DNA of 64,000 nucleotides, taken from Rhizobium tumorigenes (lineage in GTDB: Bacteria; Pseudomonadota; Alphaproteobacteria; Rhizobiales; Rhizobiaceae). The notes under the pieces are model-generated. The model saw only the letters and a program-made list of their open reading frames with translations. It ran no database searches and was not told where the DNA came from. Within the stretch, counting starts at the first letter, position 1. Each line of letters starts with the position of its first letter. This document shows positions 8,650 through 22,500 of the stretch, one piece after another. The translations under genes were made by a program, and so were the position numbers. The stretch covers positions 248,001 to 312,000 of the forward strand of contig NZ_CP117258.1 of assembly GCF_003240565.2 (NCBI RefSeq). The letters run 5' to 3'.

Positions 8650-11600
8650 TTACCCGGCGGCCGGCTCGTGCCTGGCAGGGTCCTCTTCTCGACGAATGCG
8701 GAACCAGGCCACATAGAGTGCCGGCAGGAAAAGCAGGGTGAGTACGGTACCCACCACGATGCCGCCCATCATGGCATAAGCCATCGGTCCCCAGAAGATC
8801 TCGCGGGAGATCGGAATGAGCGCCAGGGTGGCCGCCGCCGCCGTCAACATGATCGGCCGCATCCGATGTTCGGTCGCCTCGATGACGGCAAACCACGGAG
8901 GCCGTCCTTCGCTTCTGAGATGTTCGATTTGCACCACCAGGATGACCGAGTTACGGATCAGGATGCCTATCAGCGCCAATATGCCGAGGATCGCCACGAA
9001 GCCCATGGGCGAGTTGCTGATCAGCAGCGCCGATGCCACGCCGATCAATGCGGTCGGAGCGACAGCGAACACCAGGAACAGCCGGCTGAAACTCTGGAGC
9101 TGGAGCATGAGGATAGTAGCCATTGCAAAGATCATGATAGGGCCAACCGCGACGATCGGTCCCTGTGACTTTGCACTGCTCTCGACAGAGCCGCCATCCG
9201 CCACAGTATAGCCAGGAGGGAGCGCCTTGCGGAATTCATCGACCTTGCCTTGAAGTTCCGTGACAATTGTTGCGGGTTGCGTCGGACCGGTTACGGCGGC
9301 CTTGATGGTGACCGTCGGTATACGGTTGCGTCTCCAGATTTCAGGCTGCTCAAGCTCATAGTGGAAGTTGGCAACGGCCGACAGTGGCACGGAGTTGCCG
9401 CTTGTTCCCGGTAACTGGAGATTTTTCAATGCCTCGATCGAGCCTCGATCGGAACCCTGAGCCCTCCCGACCACGTTGATCAGATAGATGTCGTCCCTGA
9501 TCTGCGTTGCCGAGGATCCCTGGACGATACTGTTGAGCACGTTGGCGATGTCGGCAGACGTCACGCCCAATTGGCGGGCCTTGTCTTGCAGCACATCGAC
9601 CTTCACCACCCGCGACGGTTCGTTCCAGTCGTAGGTCATATTGGTAAGAAGGGGATTCTCGCCGACAATGCCTGCCAACTGATGAGAGTAATCCCGCAGT
9701 TTTTGAATGTCCGGACCGCTGATACGATATTGTACAGGCTTGCCGACAGGAGGGCCGATGTCGAGCAGTTTGACGAAGGCATCGGTCCCGGGAAATGTCT
9801 TGTTGAGATAGTCCTGCAGCTTGGACCTCACCTGATCGCGGACGGCGATGCTTTTGGTGACGATGACCATCTGGCCGAAAGATACGTCGGGCGTCTGGAC
9901 GTCGAAAGACAGGATAAATCGCGGTGCGCCTCCGCCGACGTAAGTCGTCCAATGAGCAATATCGCTATTGTTGGAGAGCTCTTCCTTTTCGAATTGCGCC
10001 ATCTGCCTGTTCGTTTCGGCAATCGAGCTGTTGTGCGGCAGGTTCCAGTCAACGACAAGTTCAGGCCGGTCCGAGGACGGAAAGAACTGCTGCTGCACAA
10101 TTCCCATGCCGCCGACGGCAAGCCCGAAAGCCGCAATGGTCACTATGATGGTGATCCAGCGGAAACGCATGCAGAGCCTCAGAGCCCACGAGAACGCGCT
10201 TGCAACGCGCCCTTTCTTCTCATGGTGGGACTTCATCGTCTTGGGGAGGAGCGTTACGCCCAGGAGCGGCGTGAACACCACGGCCACGACCCAGGAGACA
10301 ACCAGCGAAACTGCGATGACGACGAACAGCGTGAATGTGAACTCACCTGCAGCACTGCTGTTCAAGCCGACGGGGATGAAGCCCGAGACAGTCACGAGCG
10401 TCCCGGTGAGCATCGGGAACGCCGTGGAGGTGTAGACATACGTCGCTGCCGTCTTGAGATCGTCACCAACCTCCAGTCTCGCGACCATCATTTCGACCGC
10501 AATCATGGCGTCATCGACCAGCAGCCCGAGCGCGATGATCAGTGCGCCGAGCGATATCCGCTGCAGCGAGATGCCTGAATAGCTCATCACACAAAAAGTG
10601 ATCGCAAGAACCAGAGGTATGGAGATCGCCACGACCAGCCCGGCACGGGCGCCGAGGCTTACGAAGCTGATGACAAGGACAATGGCGATTGCTTCAAACA
10701 GAGCCCGGGTGAAGCCTGACACGGCTTCATCCACGACGGCGGGCTGATCCGAAACGCGCGCGACGTCAACACCGATTGGCAGGTCTGCGATGATGGCTTC
10801 CATCTTCTGATCGAGGCCCTTGCCGAACTCCAGAAGATTGGCGCCGCTGCGCATCCCTATAGAAAGTCCGATAGCTGGCTTGCCATTGTAACGGAACAAC
10901 GAAGTCGGCGGGTCGATGTAACCGCGCCTGATCGTCGCGACGTCCGAAAGCGGGAAGAAGCGGTTGTTGACGCGAAGATTGATCGCTTTGAGGCTTTCCT
11001 CCGACGTGAACTGGCCACCTACGCGCAACGCGATCCGCTCGGGGCCGGCATCGACGAAGCCGGACTGCGTGACCGCATTCTGATTGGAAAGCGTGTCGAT
11101 GATCGACTGGCGATCTATGCCCAAGGCGGCGATCTTGCGGGTCGAAAATTCGAGATAGACGACCTCGTCCTGCGCTCCGTCAATGTTGACTTTCCCGACG
11201 TTCGGGACTGTCAGTATCTTGGAGCGGGCATTCTCCACGAGGTCGCGCAACTGCCGCTGGGTCAAGCCGTCCGCAGTGAACGCGAAGATGTTGCCGTAGA
11301 CGTCGCCGAATGAATCGTTGAAGGTCGGACCTACGACGCCGGACGGAAAGTCACCGCTGATATCAGCGATCAGATTGCGAACCCGTACCCAGGTCGCGGG
11401 CACATCCTTGGCCTTGGTAGTGTCGAGAAGATCGACGAAGACAGTGCTCTGCCCGGCCGTGGTCTCGCTGCGCGTGACGTCGAGCGCCCCCAACTCCTCA
11501 AGTTTCTTCTCAATGCGGTCGGTGACCTGGCGGCTCATTTCGTCGGCCGATGCACCCGGCCATTGGGCCTGGATGATCATCGTCTTGATCGTGAAGTTCG

Positions 11601-11721
11601 GATCTTCCTCGCGGCCAAGGCCGATATAGGAGAAAACCCCGGCGATGCCGAATACGATCATGAAGTACCAGACGAGCGAACGGTGCTCGAGCGCCCAGTC
11701 GGAAAGATTGAATTTTTTCAC
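8650..11721 (-). CDS. RND efflux pump inner-membrane transporter (AcrB/TriC-like, HAE1)
   Basis: 1023 residues, full length for a proton-driven RND pump. It has the N-terminal helix WALEHRSLVWYFMIVFGI, a first large periplasmic loop (about 40-330), a membrane block with LGLLVDDAMIAVEMMVARLE where the Asp pair corresponds to the proton-relay residues of TM4, a second periplasmic loop and a C-terminal membrane block. It exports hydrophobic compounds, taking energy from the proton gradient. Its ATG overlaps the second adaptor gene by 4 bases. With two adaptors before it the arrangement is that of P. aeruginosa TriABC. Confidence 0.93.
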   Translation of the reverse strand: MKKFNLSDWALEHRSLVWYFMIVFGIAGVFSYIGLGREEDPNFTIKTMIIQAQWPGASADEMSRQVTDRIEKKLEELGALDVTRSETTAGQSTVFVDLLDTTKAKDVPATWVRVRNLIADISGDFPSGVVGPTFNDSFGDVYGNIFAFTADGLTQRQLRDLVENARSKILTVPNVGKVNIDGAQDEVVYLEFSTRKIAALGIDRQSIIDTLSNQNAVTQSGFVDAGPERIALRVGGQFTSEESLKAINLRVNNRFFPLSDVATIRRGYIDPPTSLFRYNGKPAIGLSIGMRSGANLLEFGKGLDQKMEAIIADLPIGVDVARVSDQPAVVDEAVSGFTRALFEAIAIVLVISFVSLGARAGLVVAISIPLVLAITFCVMSYSGISLQRISLGALIIALGLLVDDAMIAVEMMVARLEVGDDLKTAATYVYTSTAFPMLTGTLVTVSGFIPVGLNSSAAGEFTFTLFVVIAVSLVVSWVVAVVFTPLLGVTLLPKTMKSHHEKKGRVASAFSWALRLCMRFRWITIIVTIAAFGLAVGGMGIVQQQFFPSSDRPELVVDWNLPHNSSIAETNRQMAQFEKEELSNNSDIAHWTTYVGGGAPRFILSFDVQTPDVSFGQMVIVTKSIAVRDQVRSKLQDYLNKTFPGTDAFVKLLDIGPPVGKPVQYRISGPDIQKLRDYSHQLAGIVGENPLLTNMTYDWNEPSRVVKVDVLQDKARQLGVTSADIANVLNSIVQGSSATQIRDDIYLINVVGRAQGSDRGSIEALKNLQLPGTSGNSVPLSAVANFHYELEQPEIWRRNRIPTVTIKAAVTGPTQPATIVTELQGKVDEFRKALPPGYTVADGGSVESSAKSQGPIVAVGPIMIFAMATILMLQLQSFSRLFLVFAVAPTALIGVASALLISNSPMGFVAILGILALIGILIRNSVILVVQIEHLRSEGRPPWFAVIEATEHRMRPIMLTAAAATLALIPISREIFWGPMAYAMMGGIVVGTVLTLLFLPALYVAWFRIRREEDPARHEPAAG

Positions 11722-12797
11722 GGATTTTCACCTTGATCGACCCGGACAGCCTGGCCGTCGCTCAGTTTACGCACTCCGGCGACGACAACGCGTTCGCCAG
11801 GATTAATGCCTCCCGTGACCTTCACGGAACCGCCGTCCACGACTGGTCCGTCAAGTGTCACCGGATGAAGGGAGACCTTGGCCGCAGCCGTATCGACGAG
11901 CCAGACATTCGGCTTGTCGTCCTTCAGCAGGATGGCAGAGGACGGCAGCACGATGAACGGATTGGAAGGCATGGTCGCCGACGCAGTGATCACCGAGCCG
12001 ATGCGAAATGCCTCGGGCGGGTCGATCAGCGTGATTTTCGTGCGGCTGGTGCGGGTCAGCGATTCTGCCTCCGGGGCGATCTCGCGGATCACCCCTTTGG
12101 CGACCACCGTCGGATCGAGCTGCAGCGCGACATCGAAGGGCGCGCCGACATGCAGCTTGTCGAAGTTCGCCTCCGGAACGTCGATCACCGCATCGCGCTG
12201 GTCGGGACGGGCAATCGTCACCACGCTCGATCCCGCCGATACGACCTGGCCGACTTCGGCCGAGGTTGCGGTGACCACGCCATCGAACTCAGCGAGCAGC
12301 TTTGCGTAGCTAAGCTGCTCCAGCGCCTTGTCTAGGTTGGCCTGCGCCTTGCCGACGTCTGCAATCGCGCTCTTGTGGGCCTGCACCGCCTGCTCGAGCG
12401 AGGCTTCACTTCCCGACTTCGAGGCCGCGAGAGCTCGCTGTCGCTCTTCGCTGGAAGCCGCGTTGACAAGCTCCGCCTGGCTGTTTGCCAGATCGGATTG
12501 CGAGCTTCTGACCGCAAGTTCAAGCGACAACGGATCGATGGCTGCAACGACATCGCCCTTCTTGACGATATCGCCGACACTGACATTGCGTGCGATGACG
12601 CGCCCGAGCACCCGAAACGCCAGCTGCGTCTCGAATCGCGCATCGACCGTTCCTGGCAACGAAAGCGAGGACGCTTCGGATGGCTTGGCAATGATGGAAA
12701 GGACCGGACGGATAGGTTCCTTGTGGGCCTCCTCCTTCTGGCACGAGGTCAGCACGACCAGTCCGAGAACGGGTAGGACGAAATGACGAAAACTCAT
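11718..12797 (-). CDS. RND efflux periplasmic adaptor (membrane fusion protein) no. 2
   Basis: 359 residues. Lipoprotein signal with lipobox LTSC (Cys about residue 19). It shows the MFP order: barrel-sandwich half (VLGRVIARNVSVGDIVKKGDVVA), a helical hairpin (about 90-160, heptad-rich), the second lipoyl half (AEFDGVVTATSAEVGQVV), beta-barrel and membrane-proximal domains. It links the RND pump to an outer-membrane channel. Overlaps both neighbours by 4 bases (ATGA), so the three pump genes are strictly co-translated. Related to but clearly distinct from adaptor no. 1. Confidence 0.92.
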   Translation of the reverse strand: MSFRHFVLPVLGLVVLTSCQKEEAHKEPIRPVLSIIAKPSEASSLSLPGTVDARFETQLAFRVLGRVIARNVSVGDIVKKGDVVAAIDPLSLELAVRSSQSDLANSQAELVNAASSEERQRALAASKSGSEASLEQAVQAHKSAIADVGKAQANLDKALEQLSYAKLLAEFDGVVTATSAEVGQVVSAGSSVVTIARPDQRDAVIDVPEANFDKLHVGAPFDVALQLDPTVVAKGVIREIAPEAESLTRTSRTKITLIDPPEAFRIGSVITASATMPSNPFIVLPSSAILLKDDKPNVWLVDTAAAKVSLHPVTLDGPVVDGGSVKVTGGINPGERVVVAGVRKLSDGQAVRVDQGENP

Positions 12798-13870
12798 TCG
12801 GTGGCTCCCTTTCCGTAGGAAACAGTCTGGCCGGGATGCAGGAACTTGGTGCCATCGGCAACGATGATGTCGCCAGCCGCGACGCCCTTGCTGACGCCAA
12901 ATTTGCCGGTCCCGTAGGTAGAGACGTCGATGGGATGAATGGAAACCTTGGACGATGCCGGATCGACGATCCAGACGGCCGTATGGCCTTCTTTCGAAGC
13001 CATCGCAGACCAGGGAAGTTCGATGGCCTGCTGCGTCTCGGAGCGGAATGTTCCGGCGACGGCAGCCCCAAGAGGCATGCTTGCCGATTGATCGAGACCA
13101 ACCTTGACCTTGATCGTCCCGGTGGTGGTATCGATTGTCGGCGAGATCTCGCGCACCGAAGCTTCCACATGACGGGTCGGATCGGACAACTGGGTGATTG
13201 TCACCTTGTCGACGAGCTTGTTCTGGAGGAACAGGGACTCGTAAACGTTGAAGACCGCATCGCGAGGCCCGTCATGGGCAAGCGTGAAGATTGCCGATGC
13301 TGCCTGCGCGACCTGACCAACTTCGGCGTCCCGAGCAGTGATGACCCCGTCGGCGTCTGCACGCAGTTCCGTATAGGAAAGCGCATCCTGCGATGTCTCG
13401 AGCGAGGCCTGCGCCGATTTCGTCGTCCCCTGAGCCGTCAGCAGCGTCTCTTGCGCCTGGTCCAACGACGCCTTGGTCGTTACCTGCGTCTTGAACAGGT
13501 TCTGCTGTCGCTCGAATGCCAAGCGCGCCTGCGTTTCCGAGGCCTGCGCAGATTCAAGCGTGGCCTTTGCCACGGCCAGATCGGCTTTCTGCTCGGCGGG
13601 ATCAATCCTTGCCAGAACCTGCCCAGCCTTGACGACCGAACCGACGTCGACGAGCCGCTCGATAATCTGTCCGCTCACCCGGAACGAAAGGTCGCTCTGG
13701 ACGCGGGCATCGATCTCGCCGGTAATGGAATTGCTCGCGGCGACTGGCGCGGTTGAAGCGACGACCGTCTCCACCAGCTTCGGCTTGGCCTCGCTGGTCT
13801 GCTGCTTGTCGCAGGAGCACAACACGGCGGCAGCCGAAGCCAGCAGCGCGATGCTAAAAACGCTTTTCAT
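12794..13870 (-). CDS. RND efflux periplasmic adaptor (membrane fusion protein) no. 1
   Basis: 358 residues from the ATG at 13870, which has an AGAGG ribosome-binding site. A longer in-frame reading to 14371 would run over the whole promoter region and into the divergent TetR gene, so it is rejected. Lipoprotein-type signal ends VLCSC. Lipoyl halves are seen as FRVSGQIIERLVDVGSVVKAGQVL and ADGVITARDAEVGQVAQAAS around a coiled-coil hairpin. First gene of the MFP-MFP-RND operon, whose promoter coincides with the palindrome at 13907-13928. Confidence 0.92.
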   Translation of the reverse strand: MKSVFSIALLASAAAVLCSCDKQQTSEAKPKLVETVVASTAPVAASNSITGEIDARVQSDLSFRVSGQIIERLVDVGSVVKAGQVLARIDPAEQKADLAVAKATLESAQASETQARLAFERQQNLFKTQVTTKASLDQAQETLLTAQGTTKSAQASLETSQDALSYTELRADADGVITARDAEVGQVAQAASAIFTLAHDGPRDAVFNVYESLFLQNKLVDKVTITQLSDPTRHVEASVREISPTIDTTTGTIKVKVGLDQSASMPLGAAVAGTFRSETQQAIELPWSAMASKEGHTAVWIVDPASSKVSIHPIDVSTYGTGKFGVSKGVAAGDIIVADGTKFLHPGQTVSYGKGATE

Positions 13871-13898
13871 GAAGTGGCCTCTTGTTATCAGTGTCTGC

Positions 13899-13928
13899 TT
13901 GATATAATTGACTAACCCAACAGTCAAT
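13899..13928. promoter_or_regulatory. TetR-type operator over the efflux/tetR divergent promoter
   Basis: ATTGACT, 8 bases, AGTCAAT is a perfect inverted repeat at 13907-13928. Its right arm, read on the minus strand, is a TTGACT -35 hexamer followed after 17 bases by TATCAA (13904-13899), a good sigma-70 promoter for the pump operon. The left arm is the same TTGACT hexamer facing the tetR gene. A repressor bound here would block the pump promoter and probably its own gene. Confidence 0.8.
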
Positions 13929-13978
13929 GGATTTTTCAGCAAATTTCCACGGATAGTTAAGCAGAAAGAACATATGAA

Positions 13979-14599
13979 ATGGCTAATGAAGTAAAAATAA
14001 CCCGTGCCGAGCAAAAAGCCCGGAGGCCCAAGCAAATTCTCGATGCTGCTTTCGAAGAGTTTGTCGAACGTGGCTATGTTGCCACGCGGGTTGAAGACAT
14101 TGCGGAACGCGTCGGCGTAACGAAGGGGACGATATACGTCTACTTCGAGACCAAGGAGGAGTTGTTCTCCGCCATGATCAACCACATATCCACGCCTTTC
14201 GAAGATATACTGGCAAGCGGCAGGAAGCTTGAGGGAAACTGTGAAAACCGTCTGCGGACGCTGATCGAGACCCTCTACGATGACTTTCTCGGAAACCGGC
14301 GGATGCGGGAACTCCTGCGCTTTGTGATTGCAGAGGGCACGCGCTTTCCCCACGTAATCGACGAGAACCACAGGCTGTTCATCGAACCGCTGATAAGCTT
14401 CGCCCAGTCCATCATCGATGAGGGCCAGCGCAACGGTGAGTTCAAGACCGGACCCGGCTTGACGGCCGAAGTCGTGATGTCTCCCATCATGCTAGCCATG
14501 GTTTTTAGACTTATCTTTAACGATCGACGCGAGTTCGACAGGGACACCTCTATCGCTGCGCATTTCGACATGATTTTCAACGGATTGTTGCCCCGCTAA
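13979..14599 (+). CDS. TetR/AcrR-family transcriptional repressor of the efflux operon
   Basis: 206 residues. The N-terminal HTH is canonical: QILDAAFEEFVERGYVATRVEDIAERVGVTKGTIYVYFETKEELF (about residues 18-62). The C-terminal ligand domain is helical and fits TetR_C-type members. It is divergent from the two-adaptor RND operon and shares a 108-base spacer containing a perfect inverted repeat, the standard layout of a local pump repressor relieved by a pump substrate. The ATG at 13979 follows a weak AGAAAGAA ribosome-binding site. Confidence 0.9.
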   Translation: MANEVKITRAEQKARRPKQILDAAFEEFVERGYVATRVEDIAERVGVTKGTIYVYFETKEELFSAMINHISTPFEDILASGRKLEGNCENRLRTLIETLYDDFLGNRRMRELLRFVIAEGTRFPHVIDENHRLFIEPLISFAQSIIDEGQRNGEFKTGPGLTAEVVMSPIMLAMVFRLIFNDRREFDRDTSIAAHFDMIFNGLLPR

Positions 14600-14644
14600 C
14601 CCGCACGCCAGAGGCACGGGCGAAAAATGGCAACGCGCCCGCCC

Positions 14645-14700
14645 TTGCCGGAACCGGCCAAACTCTATACTCGAGAGTCGAACCGAACGGTTCGGTTCGA
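14645..14700 (+). promoter_or_regulatory. Promoter and 23-bp palindromic operator in front of the NodT-type gene
   Basis: At 14678-14700 the arms TCGAACCGAAC and GTTCGGTTCGA are exact reverse complements around one G. Just upstream lie TTGCCG (14645-14650) and TATACT (14666-14671), a possible promoter although the 15-base spacer is short. The palindrome would then cover the transcription start. Its sequence differs from the operator at 13907-13928. Confidence 0.65.
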
Positions 14701-14720
14701 TCAATTCGTGAGATAGCTTC

Positions 14721-16127
14721 ATGATTTTTGCCCGCGCGGCGTCGCCCGCTCTTCTCCTCCTTCTCGCCGGCTGTGTTAGCGGTCCCGATCACAAGCCGCC
14801 GGTGATGCCCCTGCCGGCTACTTTCTCGGAAGGTAGCAAGAAGGCCAACGAAGACATCGCCGGCCGCCAGTGGTGGACGGCCTATCACGATAAGAAGCTC
14901 GAGAGCCTTGTCGCCGCCGGCCTCGCCCAGAACGTATCGATCCTGTCGTCGATCGAGGCCACGGTCGCCGCCGAAGGCGACGTCACCGTTGCCGGTGCAG
15001 GCGCCCTGCCCAGCCTTTCGGCCGACGGGTCGAACACGACCAGCGGCGAAAAAGGCAAGCTGCGCACAAAACTGGCAACCACCAACTCGACTGCTGGCGA
15101 CCTGACCGCATCCTGGCTGCTTGATCTCTTCGGCCAGTATCGCCGCGCCCGCGAAGGGGCACTCGACTCGCTCGACGCCGCCTATGCCACTGTCGACGTC
15201 ACGCGGCTGACCTATCTCCAGGATCTGGTGACAAGCTATATCAACGCCCGCTATTATCAGGCGCGCATTTCCATCGCTGCCGATAGTCTCGCCTCCCGCC
15301 GCAAGACGCTGGAACTGACGAAATTCCAGATGGTTGCCGGTGCCGCGTCGCGTCTCGACGTGGTGCAGGCCGAAGGCCTCGTCAATTCGACGCTCTCGGA
15401 AGCGCCGGGCCTCGAAATCAGCTACCGGCAGCAGGTCCATCATATCGCGACATTGCTGAACATGCCTCCGGCAACCGTCATTGCCGACATGCGCAGCGGG
15501 GGCAGACAACCGGTCTTCCGCGGCAGTGTCGCCACCGGCGTTCCCGCCGACCTCATCCGCAATCGCCCAGACATCCGCAAGGATGAACGGGACCTCGCAG
15601 CAGCAACCGCCCAGATCGGCGTCGCCGAAGCCAAGCTCTATCCGAGCATTTCGCTCAGCGGCTCGATTTCGCCCTCCTACGTCAAATCAAGCGGCTCGCA
15701 TGGCAGCCTGACCTCATGGTCTTTCGGGCCGACGCTCAATCTTCCGATCCTCGACGGCGGTTCGTTACGCGCCAACGTCAAGATCGCTGAATCCAATGCC
15801 CGGGCCGACTATCTGACATGGAAATCCACGGTGCTGAATGCCGTCGAAGACGTGGAGAATGCGCTTTCGGCTGTCCGCCGCGATGCACAGACAATCTCGG
15901 CCCTGCGTGCCCAGGTCAATTCTTACCAGGAAGCCCTGCAACTCTCGACCGATAGCTACAAGGACGGCGCGTCTTCCCTGTTGAACGTCATCGACGCCCA
16001 GCTTTCGCTTGCGACCGCCCAGGAAAGCCTGGCTGCCGCAATCCAGCAGAGCGCCGCCGACTACGTATCTTTGAACGTGGCGATCGGCTCGGGATATGCG
16101 GGTACCGACAAGGGACCGCGGACATAG
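14721..16127 (+). CDS. Outer-membrane efflux channel lipoprotein (TolC/NodT family)
   Basis: 468 residues with lipobox LAGC (Cys about residue 17), then GPDHKPP typical of NodT-type outer-membrane factors. Two repeats of the OEP fold are visible: long helices in the first half (SLDAAYATVDVTRLTYLQDLV) and again in the second half after DLIRNRPDIRKDERDLAAATAQIGVAEA. SFGPTLNLPILDGG is the conserved second-repeat strand. It forms the outer-membrane exit duct for RND or MFP exporters, most simply the pump at 8650-13870. Own promoter with a palindromic operator. The name refers to the family, not to nodulation. Confidence 0.92.
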   Translation: MIFARAASPALLLLLAGCVSGPDHKPPVMPLPATFSEGSKKANEDIAGRQWWTAYHDKKLESLVAAGLAQNVSILSSIEATVAAEGDVTVAGAGALPSLSADGSNTTSGEKGKLRTKLATTNSTAGDLTASWLLDLFGQYRRAREGALDSLDAAYATVDVTRLTYLQDLVTSYINARYYQARISIAADSLASRRKTLELTKFQMVAGAASRLDVVQAEGLVNSTLSEAPGLEISYRQQVHHIATLLNMPPATVIADMRSGGRQPVFRGSVATGVPADLIRNRPDIRKDERDLAAATAQIGVAEAKLYPSISLSGSISPSYVKSSGSHGSLTSWSFGPTLNLPILDGGSLRANVKIAESNARADYLTWKSTVLNAVEDVENALSAVRRDAQTISALRAQVNSYQEALQLSTDSYKDGASSLLNVIDAQLSLATAQESLAAAIQQSAADYVSLNVAIGSGYAGTDKGPRT

Positions 16128-16153
16128 ACGGGCCGCTTTTGCAGGAGCCAACC

Positions 16154-16624
16154 ATGACCGAACTGGACCAAGGAACCGTGCTTGACGTCGCTATCGGACT
16201 TGACCGGATGACCGCGCTGGTCGCCGGCGTCGTCTGTGATACCATCCCGTCGGCTTTCTCGGACGACAAGTTCACATTTGTCGAACTCAGCGTGCTCCGC
16301 CACCTCGTCATCTCCGGTCCGACGACCTTTGATGCGTTGAAGAGAAAGGCGTCAGTCACGGACGAGTTACTGACGGAAGTCATGTGGTCGCTGTGCGACG
16401 GGGGCAGCATTGCCGATGAGGACGGCCGGCTTTCGCTCACCGAAAAGGGAGCCGACAACCTGCGCCGGCTGCAGGCCTCCACCACGAGCGCCTATGTCGA
16501 TGCCCTCCAGGATGTCCCGCCCGATCTCCTGAGGGGCTTGGCGAAATCGCTGGGAGAAGTGCTGCGGCATGTGCCCGCCCATCCTACGGCAAACGCGTCT
16601 GCCTGCGACCAACCCGGCTGTTAA
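16154..16624 (+). CDS. Small winged-helix (MarR-like) protein, 156 residues
   Basis: ATG at 16154 with a CAGGAG ribosome-binding site; a TTG at 16139 would include that site in the coding region. The middle (about residues 40-105) reads as a winged helix: FVELSVLRHLVISGP, TTFDALKRKASVTDELLTEVMWSL, GGSIADEDGRLSLTEKGADN. The N-terminal helix and C-terminal helix would dimerise as in MarR proteins. DNA target unknown. It starts 26 bases after the NodT-type gene and may be cotranscribed. A damaged partial copy follows immediately. Confidence 0.65.
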   Translation: MTELDQGTVLDVAIGLDRMTALVAGVVCDTIPSAFSDDKFTFVELSVLRHLVISGPTTFDALKRKASVTDELLTEVMWSLCDGGSIADEDGRLSLTEKGADNLRRLQASTTSAYVDALQDVPPDLLRGLAKSLGEVLRHVPAHPTANASACDQPGC

Positions 16625-16644: not shown

Positions 16645-17034
16645 ATGGCAACCACCAAGTGCGCACTGCGGCGCAATAACAGGGCAGCGTCGACTACCGG
16701 GAAGCGCGGGTCGGCGCGGATCCTCGTCGGCACCGTGATTGTCGCTGTCGTGGCCGGTGTCTTGCTCCCGGCACCGATCATGCAGGGCGTCCTGAAGAAA
16801 GCTGCGGCATTGACGGATGTTCTTCTGACGAAAGTGATGTGGTCGCTATGGGTCGGCGGAAGCATAGCCTCGGGCGACCACAGTTCTTTCGTCAGTGACA
16901 AAGCTATCGATCAACGCCTGTTTCTGCGGGTTTCCGTCGAAGCGCTCAACGGGCGCAATCGGCCGCTCGCAAGCAGTCCCACACGCATCCAGATTTTGGA
17001 AAGGACGATCATATGGATACCGACAAGGGCGTGA
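16645..17034 (+). pseudogene. ORF with one membrane segment joined to a degraded partial copy of the neighbouring winged-helix gene
   Basis: 129 codons. Residues about 24-45 form one hydrophobic segment (ILVGTVIVAVVAGVLLPAPI). The following stretch, TDVLLTKVMWSLWVGGSIA, matches TDELLTEVMWSLCDGGSIA of the upstream gene at 15 of 21 residues in the aligned block, then similarity fades. The C-terminus (IWIPTRA) overlaps the next gene and its ribosome-binding site. An AAAGGA site precedes the ATG, so it might still be translated. A remnant of a tandem duplication is more likely than a functional regulator, because most of the winged helix is missing. Confidence 0.5.
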
Positions 17035-17287: not shown

Positions 17288-18508
17288 TCAGTCCCGCCAA
17301 TCCGCCGCCTTGCCGAATTCATTGACGGGCAGCGTGGTACCAAACGTCCAGATGCGAGGGCGTTCCACTTCCGAAAGCCGCTGCCTGCACCACGTATCGA
17401 GATCGGATGAAAGTTCCTCCTCGGCGCCGGTTGAAACGGGGACGACGAACGCTTTCAAACGAGCGCCGGCCGGCATCGGCGCAAGGCGCACCGAGGCCGC
17501 TTTGACCTTGGGATGCTGCTCCAGCACGGCGGCAATTCGCTGCGGCCAGACATTTATCCCACCGATCTGAACGCCTCCATCGCGCCTGCTGCCGACGGTA
17601 AACTCCCGGTCGGTTATCATCTCGACGGTATCGGGAACATCATGGACCGCTCCGTCCGGACCGCGCAGCCTCACGCCCGCAGCGACTTCCCCGCGGCCAT
17701 TTTCGAAACTCCAGTGCGGCATCAAGGTGTATCGGTCGGATGGATGCCGGCGCCAACCGATCCCCGCCGTCTCGCTCGATCCGTAGAGTTCGGTCATGCC
17801 GCCAAGCCCGCGATCGATCAAGGACGTCATCAGCGGAGCGGGGCATGGCGCGGTAGACACGACACCTTCGACGTCGACGGCCCAGGTGGAGATCGTGCGA
17901 TTGATCGCCGCCCACCTATCGGGGAAGGAGACGACAAGGTCTCCCGGCAAAAGCCCGTTGTTCAGATATCGTGGCGAGCAGGTCGCGCCGGAAACGACAT
18001 CCACAGCAAGCCGGTCGGCGAGGAAGGCGGTCAGCAGGCAACCGTAGATGTGATGCGGGGGCGCGAGCGCGATGATGCGGCGGCGGGAGGTGAAAAGGTC
18101 GGCGAGAAATCCGGCCTCCCCGATCAGCGCTGCAGCGTCATGGAAACATCTTTTCGATACGCCCGTCGAGCCCGATGTCAGGAATGTCATCTTCGAAACA
18201 CCGCACGCCCAAGCCGCCTCGATGGCATCGAGCCAATCGCCGAAAGTGGCCATTGCGGCCGGATCGGGATCGCTCTCGCTCTCGTATAGGTGAAACATCT
18301 CGTTGATGGCGGCTCCCACCGTCATCATTTCCAGCGAATCCAGTCCGAGGCCCGCCTGGCCATCCCGCCGCAATGACAGTTCGTCGGACCATGACCCGCC
18401 ATCGGACGCTATGACGCTGCCTGCACCGCTCGACCGTTCCCTCGCGTTCTTCAACTCAGCCTCGATCAGGCTTTGCAAAACGCGGGCAGTGGCAGTGCGG
18501 CTGAGCAT
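17288..18508 (-). CDS. pcl: AMP-forming ligase of the PYP-activation type (p-coumarate:CoA ligase-like) with an N-terminal carrier-like segment
   Basis: 406 residues from the ATG at 18508, short for an adenylating enzyme (usually about 500-550). Core motifs are complete: MTFLTSGSTGVSKRCFHD (ATP loop), TELYGSSETAGIGWR, GINVWPQRIAAVLEQHPKVKAASV and the C-terminal LPVNEFGKAADW with its catalytic Lys. Residues about 1-95 include GLDSLEMMTVGAAINEMF, like a carrier-protein DSL helix. A compact ligase of about this size activates 4-coumarate for photoactive yellow protein in Rhodobacter. The gene lies in one operon with a PYP-like gene (5-base gap to the cyclase gene), which supports this role. Substrate is inferred; another aryl acid is possible. 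Confidence 0.75.
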   Translation of the reverse strand: MLSRTATARVLQSLIEAELKNARERSSGAGSVIASDGGSWSDELSLRRDGQAGLGLDSLEMMTVGAAINEMFHLYESESDPDPAAMATFGDWLDAIEAAWACGVSKMTFLTSGSTGVSKRCFHDAAALIGEAGFLADLFTSRRRIIALAPPHHIYGCLLTAFLADRLAVDVVSGATCSPRYLNNGLLPGDLVVSFPDRWAAINRTISTWAVDVEGVVSTAPCPAPLMTSLIDRGLGGMTELYGSSETAGIGWRRHPSDRYTLMPHWSFENGRGEVAAGVRLRGPDGAVHDVPDTVEMITDREFTVGSRRDGGVQIGGINVWPQRIAAVLEQHPKVKAASVRLAPMPAGARLKAFVVPVSTGAEEELSSDLDTWCRQRLSEVERPRIWTFGTTLPVNEFGKAADWRD

Positions 18509-19836: not shown

Positions 19837-20196
19837 TCAGCGCAGTATAAGAATGTATCTCAGCGCAAAATCCGTCCCTTTCAGCAGGCGAAGCCGAACG
19901 GGGGTCGGACGCATACGCAATGTCAGGACATAAGGAATGACATCGTCGATCTGATCTTCGTCCTCGAAACGCTGCGCGACCAGAAAATTATTCATGCACT
20001 GGGCAATTTCATCGAAATATTCTGAACCCATGACAGTTTCCCGACGAAGTCCGGCAAGAGACGATTCCGTCGCGTTGTAGCGTTCGACGACACCGTCCGC
20101 ATTGAGGCCGACCACCCCGAATGCAAGGCTGTCGAACGTCGTGTCATCCATCTTTTCCAGATCCAGCCCGGAAATACCTTCGAACGAAGTCGTCAC
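19837..20196 (-). CDS. pyp: Photoactive yellow protein (PYP)-like blue-light receptor
   Basis: 119 residues from the GTG at 20196, close to the 125 of Halorhodospira halophila PYP. It aligns without large gaps: LEKMDD and LAFG match LAKMDD and LAFG; RYNATE matches QYNAAE; IAQC matches VAPC; MRPTPVRL matches MTPTKVKV. Thus Tyr40, Glu44, Cys67 and Met95 correspond to PYP Tyr42, Glu46, Cys69 (chromophore thioester) and Met100. Thr50 and Arg52 are replaced by Ala and Leu, and Pro68 by Gln. PYP uses p-coumaroyl bound to the Cys. A TTG start at 20217 is possible, but GGGGA precedes the GTG. Operon with the cyclase and ligase genes. Confidence 0.85.
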   Translation of the reverse strand: MTTSFEGISGLDLEKMDDTTFDSLAFGVVGLNADGVVERYNATESSLAGLRRETVMGSEYFDEIAQCMNNFLVAQRFEDEDQIDDVIPYVLTLRMRPTPVRLRLLKGTDFALRYILILR

Positions 20197-20442
20197 CCTT
20201 GATCCCCACTCTGTCAAATTCGCCCGGCCGAAGCCAGCGCGCTGAGATTAGCAGAACCTCCAAGGTGGTGGAATATGGCAAATTGGCAAGGAGTGAAAAC
20301 ACAAACACTTAGCGACCCTGCCACCTGGCGATCGCGTTCCGCGACGAGCCGGGCACCCTGCAGGCATCGCTCCACAACCATGGCGAAAACACCAGCACGG
20401 CGTCGCGCCATCCATAGGGGCACCGAACTTCCAGGACTTGCC

Positions 20443-22236
20443 CTATGCCGGCTGGCGGGCGTTTCCGGTGGCGGCAGCCAGGCTCTTCTGCTGCGAATCA
20501 TGCCAGCGTTCGAACTCGCGAGGCTTCAACGGCTTTGCAAAGAGATAGCCCTGCGCCTCGTCGCAATGGATGGCGGCAAGAATGTCACGGGCTTCCCTGG
20601 TTTCCACGCCCTCTGCGACGACGCGGTAGCCGAGGTCGTGGCTAAGGGAAATCATCGATCGCACGAGGTTGCGTTCGCGCGTTCCGTCTTCCAGGGTTTT
20701 GATGAAGGACTGGTCGATCTTGACGACGGTTGCCGGCAGCAGCTGGAGATAGGACAAGCTGCTGTAGCCTGTGCCGAAATCATCGATGGAGAGGCGGATG
20801 CCGGCTTCCGCCAGCGAGCGCAGCTTGTCCATAGCCTTCGCGGCGTCCTTCATGATCGAGCTCTCGGTCACCTCCAGCTCCAGCATCTCAACCGGAATTT
20901 CGTGGCGAAGCAGAGCAAGGACGACCTGCTCGGCAAAGTCTTCCTCTTCCAGATTGGCTGCAGAGACGTTGACGGAAAGCGGCATGTTAAGGCCATTGTC
21001 CTTCCATGCCCGTGTCTGGCGAAGAGCGGCATCGAGAACCCAGGCCGTCATCTTCCGCACATGCGGCGAATGCTCGATGATCGCCACAAACTCGCCGGGC
21101 GAGACAGCGCCAAAGTCCGGGTGGCGCCAGCGCAACAGCACTTCGGCTGCCACGCAGCGGCCGCTTGCCAGATCCATGCGTGGCTGAAAGACGACCGATA
21201 ACTGATCGTTAGATTCCAGCGCCAGTCCAAAATCCTCCAGCAGCCTGAAGGCACGCTCGTGCTTGGCATGGCTGGAGGCTGAAAAAAGGCTGACGCGCGT
21301 TTCTGTGCCGCGTGCGTCCTGAGCGGCGCTGTTCAATTCCTGCAGAAGCTCGGCCGGGCTGATTTTCCGGGCGATAAAAGGCGCAACGCCCATCACCGGC
21401 GTCATCATGAACCGCAGGCTCAATCCGGCTTCGATCTGCGTCAGCATCGTGCCGAGCCTGGCCAGATATTTCTGCTTGCGAACACCTTTGGGCGCAACGA
21501 AGGCAAATTGCGTTGACGACACGTGATAGGTGGTTTTTCCGTTGCCGAGCGACGATCGGATAATCCGTCCGGCTTCCCGGATACAGGTGTCGACATGGGC
21601 CGGACCCATCACCCGGGCGAGCGTATCGATTTGGGTGCTATCGGCAAGATCGACGAGAACAGCAAAGCGTTGAAGCCCGCTGGCATCGTCCAGCACGAGG
21701 TCGGAAAGGTCGTCGAAGAATTGCATCCGGTTCGGCAGGCCGCTGATCGGGTCGATCCGGCCGATGGAATGCTGCAGTTCGATTTGCGACATGACCATCG
21801 CGGCAAGGTCCTGCAAGCCCGAAAGCTCTTCCTCCGTTGCGGTGCGTGGCTCCGTTCCGAGCACGCAGAGGGCTCCGAGCCCATGCCCCTCGCGTGTTAT
21901 CAACGGGGCGCCGGCATAGAAGCGGATGCCGCTCCTGCCAAGAACGCTTTCCCGATAGCAGTCGTCCTCTGCCATATCCGGAATGACCAGCAGGTCCCTG
22001 CTTTCTGCCACTTGCGCACACGGCGCGCGTTCCCGGGGAATGGAGTTGTGATCGACACCGATGCGCGACTTGAACCATTGGCGATCCACATCCGTCAGCG
22101 AGACGGCAGCAATCGGAAGGTTGAATATCTGGCTGGCCATTCGCGTGATGCGATCAAAGTTTTCGCTGGCTGGCGTATCGAGAAGCCCGAGATTGTATAG
22201 CGCCTCGAGGCGCTCGTGCTCTGCTGAATTTATCAT
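20443..22236 (-). CDS. Cyclic-di-GMP phosphodiesterase, GAF-(degenerate GGDEF)-EAL
   Basis: 597 residues from the ATG at 22236 (a TTG at 22251 is the alternative). GAF domain about 20-165 (YNLGLLDTPASENFDRITRMAS). A GGDEF-like domain about 165-310 begins DPISGLPNRMQFF, but its active loop reads SSTQF, so it cannot be a cyclase. The EAL domain about 335-590 keeps EVLLRWRHP, NVSAANLEEEDF, ELEVTESS, DDFGTGYSS, KIDQSFIK, AEGVE and QGYLFAKP, all needed for catalysis. It should hydrolyse cyclic-di-GMP. It lies 246 bases upstream of the PYP operon on the same strand and may be its opposing enzyme. Confidence 0.9.
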   Translation of the reverse strand: MINSAEHERLEALYNLGLLDTPASENFDRITRMASQIFNLPIAAVSLTDVDRQWFKSRIGVDHNSIPRERAPCAQVAESRDLLVIPDMAEDDCYRESVLGRSGIRFYAGAPLITREGHGLGALCVLGTEPRTATEEELSGLQDLAAMVMSQIELQHSIGRIDPISGLPNRMQFFDDLSDLVLDDASGLQRFAVLVDLADSTQIDTLARVMGPAHVDTCIREAGRIIRSSLGNGKTTYHVSSTQFAFVAPKGVRKQKYLARLGTMLTQIEAGLSLRFMMTPVMGVAPFIARKISPAELLQELNSAAQDARGTETRVSLFSASSHAKHERAFRLLEDFGLALESNDQLSVVFQPRMDLASGRCVAAEVLLRWRHPDFGAVSPGEFVAIIEHSPHVRKMTAWVLDAALRQTRAWKDNGLNMPLSVNVSAANLEEEDFAEQVVLALLRHEIPVEMLELEVTESSIMKDAAKAMDKLRSLAEAGIRLSIDDFGTGYSSLSYLQLLPATVVKIDQSFIKTLEDGTRERNLVRSMISLSHDLGYRVVAEGVETREARDILAAIHCDEAQGYLFAKPLKPREFERWHDSQQKSLAAATGNARQPA

Positions 22237-22500
22237 ATGAAATCGATTCAAGTTGACGTTCTAATGCGTCTATTCACAAGGTAACACTTGTCAATTATCA
22301 ATTACAGAAGAAAGCATATCTTATTTTAACAATGTGCCAGATAAGACATTCTTTCGGTGCTTCCCGCGCCTTTTATAGTCTGTCGACCCCTGCTCCTAGC
22401 TGTCGGCACCGGAGCCATCTATTGCTTGCTGCTGAGACAGACGCTTTTGCTTTGGCGACAAGGCTGCTAGAGGGGCGCTTTTTGAAGCAAGGAAAACAAT

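Follow-up and report, generated by a model that had tools for sequence, protein, structure and literature searches.

Organization of the locus

The stretch of DNA analyzed here, referred to as the window, spans 64,000 nt and contains three consecutive genes on the minus strand, in the order pyp, PAS-GGDEF cyclase and ligase, with gaps of 12 bp and 5 bp between them. A gene for a GAF-GGDEF-EAL protein lies upstream of pyp. The features are as follows.

20443..22251, minus strand: GAF-GGDEF-EAL protein, possible c-di-GMP phosphodiesterase, from domain matches
19837..20196, minus strand: pyp, a 119-aa clade C-type photoactive yellow protein (PYP), from profile, PDB search and alignment
20077-20079 (Tyr40), 20065-20067 (Glu44), 19996-19998 (Cys67) and 19912-19914 (Met95), minus strand: pyp active-site codons
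18514..19824, minus strand: diguanylate cyclase (PAS-GGDEF), with intact GGEEF and the RxxD inhibitory-site motif
17288..18508, minus strand: putative chromophore ligase of the PYP-activation type (TIGR02372-like), 406 aa, starting 5 bp after the cyclase stop
18182..18508, minus strand: predicted acyl-carrier-protein-like domain, ligase residues 1-109, from PDB profile match and hhalign
18335..18337, minus strand: codon of ligase Ser58, proposed phosphopantetheine attachment site (GLDSLE), part of the invariant D57-S58
17288..18181, minus strand: adenylate-forming (ANL) core, from Pfam (AMP-binding barely below its cut-off, AMP-binding_C above) and structure comparison

The pyp ORF begins with GTG and encodes 119 aa followed by a stop, and the plus-strand reading of 19837-20196 is interrupted by an internal stop. 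A longer form starting from TTG at 20217 is possible; the R. tumorigenes annotation uses the 119-aa form, with which the window protein is 100% identical over 119 residues. In that annotation the PYP is named a 'PAS domain-containing protein' and the ligase a 'hypothetical protein'. An initial annotation of the window had picked out the pyp ORF itself, but had missed its minus-strand orientation, the operon and the ligase.

The ORF encodes a photoactive yellow protein

The initial annotation had proposed that this ORF is a photoactive yellow protein with an intact chromophore cysteine rather than a plain PAS domain, and had suggested a search with the PYP family model as a check. The window protein matched the PYP model TIGR02373 (E 1.8e-18) far better than the generic PAS model PF00989 (E 1.7e-5), and 33 of the 43 chains listed in a PDB search, all at the top of the list, were PYPs or PYP-derived (best E 1.2e-13). 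The TIGR02373 score of 66.8 bits is below the curated cut-off of 143.05, so the protein does not qualify for this narrow equivalog, which is attributable to the coverage of the model: passages of Xing et al. (2022, PMC9664959) put the share of their BLAST-derived PYP homologs captured by TIGR02373 at 20%. The best PDB alignments start at the L-K-M-D-D helix and run onward, as had been claimed, and the residue correspondence with Halorhodospira PYP was also reproduced, with Tyr40, Glu44, Cys67 and Met95 paired with Tyr42, Glu46, Cys69 and Met100. These four residues are intact in all 81 PYPs compared (the window and 80 genome loci). By its equivalents of Cys69, Tyr42 and Glu46, and by its greater proximity to PYP than to PAS models, the protein belongs to the Cys69-containing PYP family in the sense of Xing et al. 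(2022).

Based on these sequence comparisons, the minus-strand ORF at 19837-20196 is a PYP. On profile scores and residues a plain PAS domain was rejected, and the preference for PYP follows from those scores, from the intact Tyr, Glu, Cys and Met, and from the PYP-activation-like ligase encoded on the same strand 1.3 kb downstream. Chance resemblance is excluded by the E-values together with the recurrence of the same neighbors in further genera as well as Acidobacteriota loci. Several pocket residues differ from those of Halorhodospira PYP (Pro68 to Gln, Phe96 to Leu, Phe62 to Tyr, Val66 to Ile and Ile31 to Val), as does position 70 (Thr to Met), and three residues of Halorhodospira PYP are deleted in the window protein. 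It belongs to the Ala50 class, in which, according to passages of Dohmen et al. (2025, PMC12826048), the most red-shifted examples are found, although with scatter.

Clade assignment and distribution

In Halorhodospira numbering, the window PYP has Gln68, Met70, Leu96, Thr97, Leu98 and Met100. Among 1600 proteins matching it at E<=0.001, residues were counted in 120 listed homologs, or 119 excluding P0002. Met70, Leu96, Thr97 and Met100 were each present in 119 of 119, and Gln68 and Leu98 in 114 of 119 each. As excerpted here, Xing et al. (2022, PMC9664959) define clade C by the loss of Phe92, Phe96 and Trp119 with retention of Met100, report no characterized member, and note that clade C PYPs often adjoin GGDEF genes. 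In the window PYP, Met100 is kept, Phe92, Phe96 and Trp119 are replaced by Ile, Leu and Tyr, and a GGDEF gene is adjacent, so that by its diagnostic residues the protein fits as a new member of this known clade. It differs from the described clade C PYPs in its occurrence in Rhizobium and in forming, with L005 and P0003-P0007, a branch of its own. That group is well supported (100/98) in a PYP tree of 95 rows and 122 columns, in which its point of attachment was not resolved; the tree therefore lends no support to a recent donor of the operon.

The initial annotation had described PYPs as sparse, which agrees with the presence of a PYP in only 1 of 394 sampled genomes of the family, that one being the source genome itself. 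Within Rhizobium, PYP was found in R. tumorigenes, R. rhododendri and Rhizobium sp. L51/94 (chromosome 2), and related loci are mostly in Sphingomonas, Methylobacterium and Burkholderiales. Among named records, those closest to the window come from R. tumorigenes 932 plasmid unnamed1 (97%) and R. rhododendri (about 89-90%). The stretch from the ligase to the EAL gene is kept in these relatives, as judged from its nucleotide identity (97% with R. tumorigenes, 89% with R. rhododendri) and that of the PYP protein (100% and 92%).

The PYP-cyclase pair is conserved

The cyclase matched Pfam GGDEF at E 9.9e-43 and PAS_9 at E 1.2e-5, the latter slightly below its cut-off. Conservation of the neighborhood was counted in the 80 best of 246 related PYP loci, to which one genome can contribute two (e.g., L022 and L065); since 19 of the 80 are shorter than 13 kb, counts of neighbors are lower bounds. 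A cyclase was present in all 80 of these best loci and, by the chosen start codon, began within 150 bp of pyp in 79. Where Xing et al. wrote 'often', the presence of a cyclase beside a clade C-type PYP is thus near-universal in this best-match sample and close to a rule. GG[DE]EF was found in 77 of the 80 cyclases and RxxD in 40. At least 58 of the 80 loci encode a ligase, 56 downstream and 2 upstream of pyp (the ligase of L062 being a fragment), and none was found in the flanks examined of the other 22. An EAL-domain match, varying in position, was present in at least 56.

The operon resembles that of Halorhodospira halophila (PYP, pCL and TAL) in the Cys/Tyr/Glu pocket and in having a ligase of the same family. 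However, similarity between the two PYPs is remote (best PDB E about 1e-13), and in the window a cyclase is located between PYP and ligase and there is no adjacent TAL gene. The PYP of Idiomarina loihiensis shares a link to c-di-GMP and biofilm in the cited portions of two papers (PMC12826048, PMC9664959), and Dohmen et al. (2025, PMC12826048) cite, in the portion consulted, that blue light reduces biofilm in this system. In contrast to the clade C-type window PYP, the Idiomarina protein is assigned to clade A in the corresponding part of Xing et al. (PMC9664959).

The ligase carries a carrier-like N-terminal domain

TIGR02372 was the best-matching family for the ligase (257.3 bits, E 1.8e-76, model positions 3-385 of 386), although this score is below the curated cut-off of 334.7 and the protein thus falls outside the narrow equivalog. 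The A3, A5 and A10 motifs are present, and an AlphaFold model of the whole ligase reached a pLDDT of 90.2 and a pTM of 0.87. A profile comparison indicated that the sequence preceding the ANL core differs from the N-lobe sequence of related ligases. These first 109 residues contain GLGLDSLE, which resembles a phosphopantetheine site.

A profile of 54 such domains (the window and 53 of 63 references) was compared with the PDB. Among the best 60 of 109 rows at E<=10, 59 bore names of acyl carrier proteins or mitochondrial carrier subunits (best E 8.5e-6), the remaining one being a putative uncharacterized protein (2lki); the SDAP1 and NDU names among these rows we take to be mitochondrial complex I carrier subunits. 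In the three carrier alignments inspected, DSL was aligned on DSL. When the same profile was compared by hhalign with 25 carrier sequences, the probability was 94.1% (E 1.2e-7), versus 0.1% for the N-lobe of 27 related ligases, 4.3% for the reversed profile and 0.5% for the PYP profile. Across the 54 domains, whose mean column identity is 32%, no columns other than D57 and S58 are invariant, and in an alignment of 121 rows (the best 120 of 616 ligase matches and the window) the S58 position is Ser in all 119 rows with a residue there. The Asp-Ser-Leu motif with its invariant Ser, and the profile homology set against controls, are both features of acyl carrier domains.

We also surveyed ligase N-termini for DS[LMI], retaining the 166 of 190 with an A3 motif preceded by 70 or more residues; each of these contains DS[LMI]. 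The 24 left out were 15 listed proteins together with L013, L062, L130-L133 and L135-L137. Thirteen of the 15 have DS[LMI] within the first 140 residues, and P0181 and P0202 (341 aa each) do not; L013, L130-L132 and L135-L137 retain the DS motif, L133 is without the Ser and L062 is a fragment. L089, which is outside the 190, is also without the Ser.

Pfam PP-binding aligned to the window domain at the correct place, but with 14.6 bits versus a cut-off of 20.8, and it matched only 5 of the 54 domains at E<=0.1 (best 1.5e-4) and 3 of 72 whole ligases at E<=0.05. In the whole-ligase model, helices span residues 4-26, 58-72 and 89-101, the second starting at Ser58; in carrier proteins, which are four-helix bundles, the second helix begins at the attachment serine. 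VIA-align of this model returned ANL enzymes, some of them entries with carrier partners, with aligned ranges mostly starting from residue 1, and no free-standing carrier protein among 50 rows. Part of the domain must therefore also superpose on N-lobe elements, and for this reason the proposed carrier identity takes its support from the sequence profiles and the invariant site rather than from the fold. The VIA-align result is the main evidence against a carrier, and this modeled comparison neither shows nor excludes a carrier fold. On the sequence evidence, the N-terminal approximately 105 residues of the ligase appear to be acyl-carrier-protein-like.

Carrier domains also occur elsewhere in the source genome, on contig C2 (L118-L120 and L122), in long open frames of 836-2393 aa that are NRPS/PKS-like as judged by frame length and carrier domains alone.

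Comparison with related ligases and breadth of the serine

In 398 genomes of the phylum, the proteins ranking directly behind the PYP-type ligases against the ligase model were L090-L116. These 27 proteins align only from model position 89-102 onward and, unlike the PYP ligase with its carrier-like domain, have an ANL-type N-lobe. A profile of this N-lobe gave adenylating enzymes as the first 15 of 25 PDB rows, followed by weak rows for RNase H chains, NRPS proteins and another ligase, with no row named a carrier protein among the 25. In 22 of the 27 loci, which resemble aryl-polyene-type clusters, a small ORF distinct from the ligase gene encodes an ACP motif. Based on these results, the PYP ligase looks like a related ANL core with a carrier protein replacing the N-lobe sequence.

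Beyond the clade C-type loci, 12 further ligases were compared (L087, L089 and L129-L138). A PYP lies nearby in ten of them, and Asp-Ser is retained in every one of these, including L134-L138, where the neighboring PYP is 61-78% identical to Halorhodospira PYP and the ligase has the same motif as that of the window. The Ser is missing in the other two, L133 (truncated, with degraded motifs) and L089, and no PYP was found near either, in the 10.4 kb that make up the whole contig of L133 or in 20 kb of the 23 kb of L089. This association of the Ser with PYP, in a small sample, fits a working attachment site.

Two further loci were noted in passing. At L142 (G787 C170, 4909-8363), a lyase bearing VYHLATG, which we take to be a TAL/PAL-like motif, lies beside a truncated PYP-type ligase without the serine; no PYP was found on the contig, and this looks like a decayed PYP locus. 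At L143 (G755 C14, 9583-10629), a homolog of the PYP-type ligases lacks the carrier serine, and no PYP was found in 20 kb.

Source of the chromophore

A tyrosine ammonia-lyase (TAL) in the operon or nearby was considered as a source of p-coumarate and rejected: with three lyase queries, no lyase above 60 bits was detected in the flanks of the 80 best PYP loci of 246 (19 of them short). A genome-wide search identified three lyase-family genes (L001-L003), all far below the TAL model cut-offs. L001 is above the hutH cut-off, and for L002 and L003 the highest-scoring models were those of histidine ammonia-lyase, whose cut-offs they did not reach, so a hidden tyrosine-active lyase is conceivable. 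Likewise, the absence of TAL activity does not follow from these scores, because a TAL with a histidine-ammonia-lyase-like motif 1 is described in a passage of the flexirubin paper (PMC3992019). In the relevant passage of Dohmen et al. (PMC12826048), few pyp operons include a TAL and uptake of p-coumarate is considered possible. As no lyase reaches a TAL cut-off, the pigment here may be derived from plant p-coumarate.

By eye, L002 (1405-2895), which is histidine-ammonia-lyase-like, is near genes for an ABC transporter ATPase and an FAD-dependent oxidase-like protein, and L003 (1438-2985), well below the histidine ammonia-lyase cut-offs, is beside an ornithine-cyclodeaminase-like gene.

A proposed pathway from light to c-di-GMP

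Taken together, these three genes very probably constitute a blue-light sensing operon in which the ligase loads PYP and PYP controls the cyclase and thereby c-di-GMP. The ligase would activate p-coumarate, possibly plant-derived, for thioester linkage to PYP Cys67; blue light would isomerize the chromophore and alter the PYP surface, and the altered PYP would control the adjacent diguanylate cyclase, with c-di-GMP influencing surface or biofilm behavior. The sequences establish the family, the intact active site and the operon with its conservation; we infer chromophore binding, the photocycle, contact between PYP and cyclase, the sign of the output and the source of p-coumarate. Points against this operon model are the scores of PYP and ligase below their own model cut-offs, the changes in the pocket, the occurrence of RxxD in only half of the cyclases compared, the 22 loci (of 80, 19 of them short) with no ligase in the flanks examined, and the three lyase-family genes of the genome. 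If the protein were an ordinary PAS domain, or a redox or ligand sensor descended from a PYP but no longer able to bind p-coumarate, this would account for PAS being the sole Pfam match above its cut-off and for the differing pocket residues, and PYPs lacking Cys69 with proposed new functions are mentioned in the part of Xing et al. cited (PMC9664959). Given the conservation of Cys, Tyr and Glu in every PYP compared and a PYP-activation-like ligase in the same operon, we consider such a domain or sensor very improbable.

A narrower question, compatible with the three-gene model, is how the ligase would load PYP. Judging from the ligase sequences, we think it probable that p-coumaroyl-AMP is transferred to phosphopantetheine on ligase Ser58 and from there to PYP Cys67, with no free p-coumaroyl-CoA as the natural donor. 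The match of the domain profile to PDB carriers, the hhalign probability set against controls of 0.1-4.3%, and the invariant D57 and S58 all argue for such a transfer, as do the adenylating-enzyme N-lobes and separate ACP-motif ORFs of the control loci, the tracking of the Ser with a nearby PYP (10 of 10 with, 0 of 2 without), and three PPTase-family matches in the genome. The subthreshold PP-binding matches and the alignment of the whole model from residue 1 to ordinary ANL enzymes speak against it, as does the naming of CoA as the acceptor in print, in the passages cited here (PMC12826048, PMC6273459). It is also possible, if somewhat doubtful, that the carrier-like domain is vestigial or structural and that the protein is a plain p-coumarate:CoA ligase, with PYP loaded from free p-coumaroyl-CoA. 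Such loading matches those published descriptions and the fit of the whole ligase model to CoA ligases, and a CoA thioester could load PYP, since thiophenyl ester and anhydride donors also react with it according to an excerpt of one of these reports (PMC6273459). However, there is no need for a vestigial domain to retain Asp-Ser as the sole two invariant columns in an otherwise divergent sequence. As for the activity itself, a 2014 paper (PMC3992019) writes, in the passage cited, of 'hints' of 4CL from early PYP work, and the corresponding statement of Dohmen et al. (PMC12826048) is that ligase activity was shown.

Extending transfer via Ser58 to other PYPs, we put it at slightly better than even that across PYP systems, the ones with Halorhodospira-like PYPs among them, the 'p-coumarate:CoA ligase' is a carrier-fused adenylating enzyme that hands the chromophore to PYP, with a plant-derived chromophore in the present case. 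If true, a carrier-protein route would install the chromophore of a photoreceptor, PYP accepting it where a biosynthetic enzyme normally stands, and light sensing in this rhizobial clade would be tied to a plant phenolic. PYP is a textbook photoreceptor for which cellular chromophore loading has been described in terms of free CoA, and a carrier-like domain with an invariant serine makes a different, directed loading route testable. We found no mention of a carrier domain in a PYP ligase in the open literature searched, which included two PYP family papers; this is not proof that the feature is novel. For the clade C PYPs, uncharacterized as of 2022, the locus represents a compact light-to-c-di-GMP operon without a recognized chromophore-making gene.

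Surroundings of the operon

The initial annotation had placed pyp in a sugar/EPS region. Genes for sugar ABC transport and exopolysaccharide transport are indeed on the same replicon in R. tumorigenes, but, by the R. tumorigenes annotation, the operon itself is flanked by the EAL protein and, at its other end, by small ORFs and an RND efflux set. The efflux set and a TetR regulator, with gene names per R. tumorigenes, occupy window 8694-16127, of which 8694-14220 matches other Rhizobium plasmids at about 74%. Between the efflux set and the ligase are two small ORFs (16139-16624 and 16645-17034), annotated as hypothetical proteins in R. tumorigenes, for which a profile scan gave only insignificant family matches. 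The same order of PYP, cyclase and ligase is found on the 67-kb plasmid pB of Methylobacterium sp. FF17 (L086), where EAL-type genes are located on both flanks and a chemoreceptor gene lies upstream.
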